Shown: positions 18,999-22,221 of the stretch, piece after piece
Layout of the letters: each line of letters begins with the position of its first letter
Position numbering within the stretch: the stretch's first letter is position 1
Assembly: GCF_004366735.1 (NCBI RefSeq)
Contig: NZ_SOQX01000004.1
Span: forward strand, 102,705-166,704
Direction of reading: 5' to 3'
Length of the DNA stretch: 64,000 nt
Source: Thiohalophilus thiocyanatoxydans
GTDB taxonomy: Bacteria > Pseudomonadota > Gammaproteobacteria > UBA6429 > Thiohalophilaceae
Translations under genes and position numbers: made by a program
Notes under the pieces: generated by a model
Databases searched by the model: none
Told to the model about the DNA's origin: nothing
What the model saw: only the letters and a program-made list of their open reading frames with translations

Positions 18999-19490
18999 AT
19001 GAAAATCAACTTGCTGAAACTGCTGAGTCGGCTGAGCTTTTTGTCGGAGAAGCGTCGCCTGCAATGGTATCCGCCCTTCTGGCTGATGCGGGTGAAAGTT
19101 CTGGAGTTGAGTGACGACTGGCGCCGGATTCGGTTGCTGTTACCCTTGAACATGATTTCGCGTAATATGGGCGGGTCGATGTTCGGGGGATATCAGGCCG
19201 CGTTGTCGGATCCGATTGCCGCCCTGGCCTGCGCCAAACGCTTTCCCGATACCGCCGTCTGGACCCGGGTGCACGAGATTGATTTTCAGCAGGTCGGCAA
19301 CAGCGATCTTGAATTGCGTTTTGAGTTCCCACCTGATCTGGAAGCACGTATCCGCGAGGAGCTGGCGCAGCGGGGTCGCAGCACGCCCACCTTCGAGTAT
19401 GCCTTTTACCGGACCGACGGGGTGCGTTGCAGTGTGGTCAAAAGTACCGTGGCCATTCGTCCTCGCGGTTATCTGCACAACAAGTCATGA
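18999..19490 (+). CDS. Hotdog-fold thioesterase, DUF4442/PaaI-like
   Basis: About 163 residues. The segment NMISRNMGGSMFGGYQAALSDP matches the DUF4442/PaaI-like hotdog pattern (N-x-G-G-S-x-F-G-G, then Asp), and the C-terminal half adds the VVKSTVAIRP strand. Such proteins cleave acyl-CoA or acyl-ACP thioesters. ATG 18999 is preferred; a GTG at 18963 would add 12 residues. It is followed after 27 bases by the LpxA-like gene and then by fabA and fabB, so a role in acyl-chain supply for lipids is a reasonable inference. Confidence 0.72.
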   Translation: MKINLLKLLSRLSFLSEKRRLQWYPPFWLMRVKVLELSDDWRRIRLLLPLNMISRNMGGSMFGGYQAALSDPIAALACAKRFPDTAVWTRVHEIDFQQVGNSDLELRFEFPPDLEARIREELAQRGRSTPTFEYAFYRTDGVRCSVVKSTVAIRPRGYLHNKS

Positions 19491-19517: not shown

Positions 19518-20300
19518 ATGAGCAATACGATTCATCCAGCTGCCATCGTCTCGAGCGAGGCCAGGCTGGGTCAGGGTAACGAGATCGGCCCCTTTGTGGT
19601 GATTCACGATGATGTGGTACTGGGGGATAACAATGTCCTGCACAGCGGCGCGGTGTTGCATGACGGCACCCGACTGGGCAGTGGCAACCGGCTGCATGAG
19701 CATGCCGTGATCGGCGGCTTGCCCCAGGATCTGGGGTTTGACCCCGCCACGCCAAGCTACGTGGAAATCGGCGACCACAATGTGCTGCGCGAGGCGGTGA
19801 TGATTAATCGCGCCAGCCAGGAGGGTGGGGTTACCCGAGTGGGAGATCACAATTATCTGATGAACGGAGTCCATCTCGGTCATGATTGTGTCCTGGGTGA
19901 TAATGTGATCATCGCGCCCTACGCCGCCCTGGGCGGTTTTGTCAGCGTGGCCGAACGGGCCTTTATCTCCGGCGGGGTGATGGTTCACCAGTTCGTGCGG
20001 ATCGGCCGGCTGGCGATGATCGGCGGCAACAGCAAGATCACTCAGGACGCGCTACCCTACATGATCACCGATGGCATGCCGGGTCGGGTGCGGGGACTGA
20101 ACGTGGTTGGACTCAAACGGGCCGGGTTCAGAGCCGAGGATCTGCGCAGTCTCAAACAGGCCTATCAACTGCTGTTTCGCAGTGGAACAGAGCTGGAGGC
20201 GGCGGTGGCTAAACTGCGGGATCTGTCGCCGGCGCCGGCCGCTGAGCTGGCCGGCTTTATTGCCGACTCGCAGCGGGGCTTTCATCGAGACAAGGGTTGA
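19518..20300 (+). CDS. lpxA: LpxA-like UDP-sugar O-acyltransferase, variant active site
   Basis: A 260-residue left-handed beta-helix acyltransferase that aligns over its whole length with E. coli LpxA, which puts a hydroxyacyl chain on UDP-GlcNAc in lipid A synthesis. The catalytic His (GVHLGHDC, E. coli His125) and the His122 equivalent are kept, as is VHQF. By hand alignment the E. coli His144 position is Phe (ALGGFVSV), His191 is Pro (DGMPGRV) and Arg205 is Ala (GLKRAGF). It is not in an lpxD-fabZ-lpxA-lpxB cluster but next to a thioesterase and fabA-fabB. It may be a second LpxA with a different sugar or acyl donor; a search for another lpxA in the genome would decide. Confidence 0.82.
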   Translation: MSNTIHPAAIVSSEARLGQGNEIGPFVVIHDDVVLGDNNVLHSGAVLHDGTRLGSGNRLHEHAVIGGLPQDLGFDPATPSYVEIGDHNVLREAVMINRASQEGGVTRVGDHNYLMNGVHLGHDCVLGDNVIIAPYAALGGFVSVAERAFISGGVMVHQFVRIGRLAMIGGNSKITQDALPYMITDGMPGRVRGLNVVGLKRAGFRAEDLRSLKQAYQLLFRSGTELEAAVAKLRDLSPAPAAELAGFIADSQRGFHRDKG

Positions 20301-20439: not shown

Positions 20440-20979
20440 ATGGATTCAGCCAACGCCGCAACAGCCGAAAAGAAGGGCAGTTATACTTATGATGAACTGA
20501 TTCAGTGCGGTCATGGGGAACTGTTCGGCCCGGGTAATGCCCAGCTGCCGTTACCGCCGATGTTGATGTTCGATCGTATTACCCACATCAGCGACAGCGG
20601 GGGCCAGTTTGATAAGGGCGAGATCATCGCCGAACTGGATATCAACCCCGATTTGTGGTTCTTCAAATGTCATTTCGAAGGAGATCCGGTGATGCCGGGC
20701 TGTCTGGGACTGGATGCCATGTGGCAGCTGGTCGGGTTTTTCCTCGGCTGGATGGGCGGCCCGGGCCATGGTCGGGCGCTGGGCGCCGGTGACGTCAAGT
20801 TTACCGGCCAGGTGACTCCCGATTGCAAGCTGGTGACTTACCGGGTGAATCTCAAGCGACTGATTATGCGTAAGCTATACATGGGCATCGCCGATGCCTC
20901 TCTGGAAGTCGACGGCCGTGAAATCTATACTGCCGAGGACCTGCGGGTCGGACTTTTTACCTCCACTGACCAACTTTAA
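20440..20979 (+). CDS. fabA: 3-hydroxydecanoyl-ACP dehydratase/isomerase FabA
   Basis: A 179-residue hotdog enzyme that dehydrates 3-hydroxydecanoyl-ACP and isomerises the product to cis-3-decenoyl-ACP, the branch point to unsaturated fatty acids. The active-site His and Asp are in [25 protein letters not shown] 20440 is preferred over the upstream TTG at 20416, giving the usual length. It forms an operon with fabB, 15 bases downstream. The 139-base gap upstream (20301-20439) should hold its promoter. A weak TTGCGT/CATAAT pair at 20402/20428 has too wide a spacer to be called. Confidence 0.96.
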
Positions 20980-20994
20980 GCAGTTTATCTGAAC

Positions 20995-22221
20995 ATGCCA
21001 TTACGACGCGTTGCTATTACCGGTCTCGGAATTGTCTCCAGTATCGGCAATAACCGGGAGGAAGTTACCGACTCCCTCCGCCAGGGCCGTTCCGGTATTC
21101 GTTTCAATTCCGAATATGCCGATCTCGGATTCCGCTCGCAAATTGACGGGCCGATTGATCTGAATCTCGATGAGATGATTGATCGCAAGCTTAAACGCTT
21201 CATGGGCGATGGCGCCGCGTTCAATTACCTGGCCATGGAACAGGCGATTGCCGATGCCGGCCTGGAAGAGAATGAGATATCCAATCCGCGCAGCGGCTTG
21301 ATCGTCGGTTCCGGCGGGCCCTCCACCCAGAACATTGTGCAGGCGGCGGACATACTGCGCGAGAAAGGCGTGCGCAAGGTCGGCCCCTATATGGTGCCGC
21401 GTACCATGTCCAGCACCAACTCCGCCTGTCTGGCCACGCCGTTCAAGATCAAGGGTGTCAACTACTCTATCAGCTCCGCCTGCTCTACCTCGGCACACTG
21501 CATCGGCAATGGTTACGAGCTGATCCAGATGGGCAAGCAGGACATCGTCTTCGCCGGCGGCGGCGAGGAAGTACACTGGACCCTGTCCGTGTTGTTCGAT
21601 GCGATGGGGGCGCTCTCCGCCAAATATAATGATGCGCCGGAAACCGCTTCGCGCACCTATGATGTCAACCGTGACGGCTTTGTCATCTCCGGTGGTGGCG
21701 GCTTGCTGGTGCTCGAAGAGCTGGAACATGCCAAAGCCCGCGGTGCGACCATTTACGCCGAGCTGGTCGGCTACGGCGCCACCTCCGACGGATTCGATAT
21801 GGTGCAGCCCTCCGGTGAAGGGGCGGTGCGCTGCATGCAGCAGGCCCTGCAGGAGGTGGAAACCCCGGTGGACTACATCAACGCCCACGGTACCAGCACC
21901 CCGGTGGGGGATATCCGCGAACTGGAAGCCGTCAAGGAGGTCTTCGGTGACAACATGCCGGCCATCGCCTCGACCAAATCCCTCACCGGTCACGCCCTGG
22001 GCGCCGCCGGCGTCAACGAGGCGATCTATTCGCTGCTGATGATGCAGGAGAATTTCCTTGCCGCCTCGGCCAATATCCAGGAACTGGATCCCGGCGCCGA
22101 AGGCTATCCCATCGTCCGCGAACGCCAGGACGACGCCAGTATCAATTGCGTCATGTCCAACAGTTTCGGTTTCGGCGGTACCAACGCCACCCTGGTGTTC
22201 CAGCGTTATAACGACGAGTGA
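20995..22221 (+). CDS. fabB: Beta-ketoacyl-ACP synthase I FabB
   Basis: A 408-residue condensing enzyme that elongates unsaturated acyl-ACP. The nucleophile Cys is in [10 protein letters not shown], with the two catalytic His in [11 protein letters not shown] and [12 protein letters not shown]. The glycine-rich [15 protein letters not shown] end is typical. It is the second gene of the fabA-fabB pair, which together make the monounsaturated chains that the cfa product at 9.2 kb could modify. A perfect 12-bp inverted repeat follows at 22280-22316. Confidence 0.97.

Follow-up and report, generated by a model that had tools for sequence, protein, structure and literature searches.

The LpxA of E. 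coli accepts both UDP-GlcNAc and UDP-GlcNAc3N, the analogue with an amino group at C3, and does not discriminate between them. The LpxA of Leptospira interrogans is reportedly selective for UDP-GlcNAc3N and for a C12 chain, and the backbone carbonyl of its Gln73 (E. coli numbering) is said to be turned so that the 3-amino group is accepted. Bacteria with two LpxAs have also been noted. The portions of the literature that bear on them mention two LpxAs in Segatella copri, Psychrobacter and Geobacter sulfurreducens, and give a chain-length explanation for the first two. Judging from PDB entry 8e62, the count of "two LpxA homologs" in Psychrobacter might include a protein that has no part in lipid A.

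For Capnocytophaga canimorsus, the relevant part of the published report (PMC3342949) describes lpxA and lpxA' together with gnnA and gnnB and a hybrid GlcN3N-GlcN lipid A. Its authors link the two lpxA genes to the hybrid backbone and to differing acylation (PMC3342949). Since this combination of two lpxA genes, gnnA/gnnB and hybrid lipid A has been reported, the second LpxA examined here belongs to a known kind. As far as that part of the report goes, the likeness extends to the genes, a single genome holding two lpxA, gnnA and gnnB, but lpxA and lpxA' of C. canimorsus stand together in one operon, unlike the two genes considered here. The principle of two LpxAs combined with gnnA/gnnB is already known, while its breadth and the sequence markers given below may be new; a description of the gammaproteobacterial group was not found in the open-licence literature that we searched.

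The window, a stretch of 64,000 nucleotides from Thiohalophilus thiocyanatoxydans, carries on its forward strand, at positions 19,518 to 20,300, the gene lpxA2. From NCBIfam models, alignment, tree and structure model, its product of 260 amino acids is a second LpxA and a predicted UDP-GlcNAc3N N-acyltransferase. Two NCBIfam models, TIGR01852 (280.8 bits, cut-off 231.05) and PRK05289 (297.2 bits, cut-off 226), place it in the LpxA family, and it is full-length, with the C-terminal LpxA domain present. The predicted structure (mean pLDDT 94.3) contains the left-handed beta-helix and the C-terminal helical domain, and its top structural matches are LpxA chains (VIA-align, Z 34.9-37.3). VIA-align tied all LpxA structures, that of Leptospira included; Leptospira LpxA came first by a small margin in phmmer and by a larger one in Foldseek (2.1e-20, the next match at 1.5e-17). 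Relatives in named records, at 54-68% identity, come for the most part from metagenome-assembled Gammaproteobacteria, and some of these records are titled Chromatiales or Ectothiorhodospiraceae.

Next, we examined the remaining lipid A genes of the same genome. The preliminary description had proposed a search for a canonical lpxA between fabZ and lpxB, and a canonical copy was found, in the order lpxD-fabZ-lpxA1, at C6:166218. LpxA2 is one of two LpxAs in the genome, and so not the sole LpxA that the preliminary description had named as a refuting case. LpxA1 scores 346 bits in the genome search for LpxA, against 280 for LpxA2, and the two proteins are 37% identical. The closest solved relatives of LpxA1, and not of LpxA2, are the UDP-GlcNAc O-acyltransferases of E. 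coli and P. aeruginosa (about 303-304 bits), with which LpxA2 has the fold and the catalytic histidines in common. The position of lpxA2 outside the lpx cluster, already pointed out, is real: the gene lies away from all lpx genes of this genome.

Convergent with lpxD-fabZ-lpxA1, C6 carries a predicted gnnA-gnnB-lpxB run. Both gnn genes were named from family and context: the best NCBIfam model for predicted GnnA is UDP-GlcNAc 3-dehydrogenase with 223 bits, under the model cut-off of 450, and predicted GnnB scores with sugar aminotransferases, under every NCBIfam cut-off. Named in this way, the pair beside lpxB is predicted to provide the route to UDP-GlcNAc3N. The convergent arrangement of lpxD-fabZ-lpxA1 and gnnA-gnnB-lpxB, as against the usual single lpx operon, was seen in genomes G058 (L134) and G000 (L130). 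We also considered a duplication of the whole lipid A route and rejected it, LpxC having one match in the genome and the LpxA search (used here in place of dedicated LpxD, LpxB, LpxH and LpxK searches) giving one high LpxD-like match of 91 bits, with the others at 22 bits or less.

Residues of LpxA2 were placed by MAFFT alignment against E. coli LpxA and are given in E. coli numbering unless stated otherwise. In the protein's own numbering, Gln73 is Gln70, His122 is His119, His125 is His122, His160 is His157, Gln161 is Gln158, position 176 is Lys173, 200 is Val197 and 205 is Ala202. Residue tallies refer to 30 orthologous LpxA2 sequences, the window gene included. The substitutions earlier read off by hand, Phe for His144, Pro for His191 and Ala for Arg205, with His122 and His125 kept, all reappeared in this alignment. 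His160, Gln161, Asn198 and Arg204 are kept as well, and these six residues are invariant in 30/30 orthologues.

The interpretation of these substitutions fared less uniformly. The preliminary description counted two conserved histidines as lost, which is right for His144, conserved in 145 of 150 sampled LpxAs, and wrong for His191, a position occupied by Pro in LpxA1 of the same genome and in the LpxAs of P. aeruginosa and Leptospira. Pro191 is invariant in the 30 LpxA2 orthologues; because LpxA1 and P. aeruginosa LpxA carry Pro too, it is uninformative on specificity, and we rejected it as a mark of an altered one. His144Phe was rejected as the key change, since 16/30 orthologous sequences have His and 14/30 Phe; it is a change confined to some members of the clade. 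Leptospira LpxA also has His here, a difference from LpxA2. Among the three residues, solely Arg205Ala is informative. At position 205, 27 of the 30 orthologues have Ala, two have Asn and one has Gly, and Val200 and Lys176 are found in every one of them. LpxA1 of the same genome has Glu200, Arg205, Met173 and Thr176; the LpxAs of E. coli and P. aeruginosa, unlike LpxA2, have Glu200 and Arg205. The combination of Ala205 with Val200 fits membership in the clade that holds L. interrogans LpxA.

This kinship was recovered in the trees. The larger one comprised 175 LpxAs, P. aeruginosa LpxA not among them, and included all 150 class LpxAs, which are the best-scoring places against the LpxA2 profile and come from 133 of 274 class genomes. 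A single clade, of 46 rows and with an SH-aLRT of 94, unites LpxA2 with Leptospira LpxA and with the second LpxAs that are linked to gnn genes; it excludes E. coli LpxA and LpxA1. In a smaller tree of 126 rows, to which gnnA-lacking genomes contributed only 22 of their remaining rows, the clade of LpxA2 and Leptospira LpxA had SH-aLRT 99. Each of the clade's 31 class rows has Val or Ile at position 200, and Ala205 is present in 24 of them. Fifteen class genomes have one LpxA inside the clade and one outside, the outside copy carrying Glu200 in 12 cases, Arg in two and Val in one; five Acidobacteria likewise have an LpxA on each side of the boundary. LpxA2 is 40% identical to L. interrogans LpxA (PDB 3hsq, 3i3a, 3i3x) and has Val200, Ala205, Pro191 and the loop PQDLGF in common with it. 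It differs from Leptospira LpxA in sharing its genome with a canonical LpxA.

Where the class sample allowed comparison, we asked how membership in this clade relates to the presence of gnnA. A gnnA homologue, called at E <= 1e-35, occurs in 99 of the 274 class genomes. In the 133 genomes from which LpxAs were examined, gnnA is present in every one of the 31 that have a clade LpxA and in 26 of the 102 others; by family, the numbers are 22/22 and 19/77. Fisher tests on this co-occurrence ignore kinship, for which the family-level count is the sole correction, and the test over 274 genomes (31/31 versus 68/243) assumes that the LpxAs of the other 141 genomes lie outside the clade. Val/Ile200 and Ala205 occur together in 24 of the 150 LpxAs, all in gnnA-bearing genomes. 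In gnnA-lacking genomes, Ala205 alone was met once and Val/Ile200 alone nine times. Since 26 sampled genomes carry gnnA and no clade LpxA was found in them, a clade LpxA is dispensable for gnnA-bearing life.

Fourteen genomes from further related loci all gave a gnnA match at E <= 1e-20 (one only in two pieces), a count that is to be read with the facts that they were hand-picked from 63 loci, mostly because they lack the fabA neighbourhood, and that it stands by itself and not against a gnnA base rate of their phyla. Two of them, G312 and G324, have one LpxA above the cut-off, not two. In the window's own family, LpxA2 (at least 54% identity over at least 234 residues) is present in 33 of 40 genomes and a clear gnnA match in 35 of 40. 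No gnnA match was found in G018, G023 and G038 of this family, which have LpxA2; gnnB runs into a contig end in G013, while in G024 gnnB is present and a piece of gnnA lies where a contig ends. The genus g11 (G011, G022, G028, G033) at first seemed to have gnnA without LpxA2, yet the one second LpxA examined, that of G022, has Val200 and Ala205.

In six genomes the clade LpxA and gnnA belong to the same run of genes. The order is gnnA-gnnB-lpxA2 in G253 and G084, lpxA2-gnnA-gnnB in G105, lpxA2-gnnA-gnnB-lpxB in G174, and lpxD-fabZ-lpxA1-gnnA-lpxA2-lpxB in G067 and G212; the other LpxA of G084, G253 and G174 is located elsewhere in the genome. Closeness to gnnA fails as a discriminator of LpxA types, 7/31 clade LpxAs lying within 8 kb of gnnA compared with 16/43 others, the latter including LpxA1 of the window's genome. 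LpxAs outside the clade are less than 300 bases from gnnA in G065, G210 and G111. That of G111 (L439:6320-8034) abuts gnnA and has Lys200 and Ala205, and a second LpxA is found on another contig; the gnnA-abutting copy may have reached the same trait independently.

Taking together the clade, the gnnA partners and the reported selectivity of Leptospira LpxA, we infer that LpxA2 is an N-acyltransferase dedicated to UDP-GlcNAc3N, which works beside the canonical LpxA1. We put the probability of this reading at roughly 0.7. GnnA would oxidise C3 of UDP-GlcNAc and GnnB would transaminate the product to UDP-GlcNAc3N. LpxA2, with His122 of its own numbering (E. coli His125) as the putative general base, would then take a 3-hydroxyacyl chain from ACP and attach it through an amide bond to the 3-amino group, and LpxA1 would acylate UDP-GlcNAc through the usual ester bond. 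With a common downstream route for the two products, lipid A could hold both GlcN and GlcN3N units. Another sugar or acyl chain had already been envisaged for this enzyme. The sugar half of that suggestion gains support from the Leptospira clade and from gnnA in 31/31 genomes, mostly evidence new to it; of the residues then offered, His191Pro and His144Phe do not contribute.

The chain half is supported too, as a prediction, by Gly173 and Lys176 of LpxA2 against Met173 of the canonical copy. Lys176 stands at the place of Lys171 of Leptospira LpxA (counted on the alignment), which we take to be a chain-length residue. Met173 of LpxA1 stands at the position of Met169 of P. aeruginosa LpxA, named as a C10 ruler in the relevant part of its description. 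Because Met173 is opposed to Gly173/Lys176 and these can be likened to Met169 of P. aeruginosa and Lys171 of Leptospira, respectively, the alignment suggests a C10 chain for LpxA1 and a longer chain for LpxA2, so that the primary chains would perhaps differ in length.

The same ruler residues could be explained if LpxA2 were a second UDP-GlcNAc O-acyltransferase, set apart from LpxA1 by nothing more than acyl chain length or the circumstances under which it is used. Such an explanation is what the relevant portions of the literature offer for the two LpxAs of S. copri and Psychrobacter, and it suits the adjacency of lpxA2 to fabA-fabB in the window's family. We consider it unlikely, as it leaves unexplained the presence of gnnA in 31/31 clade genomes, the gnnA-gnnB gene runs and the kinship with Leptospira LpxA. 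Alternatively, LpxA1 and LpxA2 might both take UDP-GlcNAc and UDP-GlcNAc3N without much preference, LpxA2 being partly redundant and kept in gnnA-bearing lineages. The indifference of E. coli LpxA, the gnn-linked LpxAs outside the clade (G065, G210, G111) and the 26 genomes with gnnA and no clade member are in agreement with this. That a second copy bearing its own signature has persisted in 22 of the families sampled from the class speaks against it, as do the five Acidobacteria that keep a clade-type LpxA together with the other type, and we regard it as somewhat less probable still.

Finally, the substrate of LpxA2 might be a different nucleotide sugar unrelated to lipid A, for example one for O-antigen. 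The location of lpxA2 in this genome, apart from every lpx gene, agrees with such a role, and PDB 8e62, a short LpxA-like protein of Psychrobacter, carries the title of an N-acetyltransferase for a diacetamido sugar. LpxA2 is full-length with the C-terminal LpxA domain, and in other genomes its gene stands in runs with lpxB (G067, G212, G174) and also with lpxD-fabZ-lpxA1 (G067, G212), which makes this role highly improbable.

If LpxA2 is indeed the amide-forming partner of LpxA1, automatic annotation gives the wrong reaction for a widespread group of LpxAs: second "O-acyltransferases" would be N-acyltransferases, recognisable by Val/Ile200 with, mostly, Ala205. From the presence of a clade LpxA one could predict that primary chains of lipid A are amide-linked, and the two-LpxA puzzle of other bacteria would become testable from sequence. 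On a broader scale, we tentatively propose, at somewhat less than even odds, that LpxA split long ago into ester-type and amide-type lines, both kept by many Gammaproteobacteria and Acidobacteria. By choice of LpxA, one of them fed by GnnA/GnnB, the cell would set ester or amide linkage and shorter or longer primary chains.

The thioesterase and fabA-fabB named as neighbours in the preliminary description are present. Downstream, lpxA2 is followed on the forward strand by fabA (20,440 to 20,979), the gene for 3-hydroxydecanoyl-ACP dehydratase/isomerase, and then by fabB (20,995 to 22,221), for beta-ketoacyl-ACP synthase I, both assigned by NCBIfam. No transcription signal stood out in the interval between lpxA2 and fabA, where promoter and terminator counts were the same as in shuffles. 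Since fabA comes after lpxA2 in 36 of 62 related loci and fabB is within reach in 35 of 62, the fabA-fabB neighbourhood is unsupported as an explanation beyond one group of relatives; the placement of lpxA2 beside fabA and the upstream DUF4442 gene looks like a relocation within that group. The thioesterase is a hotdog thioesterase-like DUF4442 protein just above the Pfam cut-off (26.3 bits versus 25), and it gave no NCBIfam match. Its gene (18,999 to 19,490, forward strand) ends 27 bases before lpxA2. It lies directly upstream of lpxA2 in 17 of the 62 related loci and is likely an operon partner of lpxA2 in part of the relatives.
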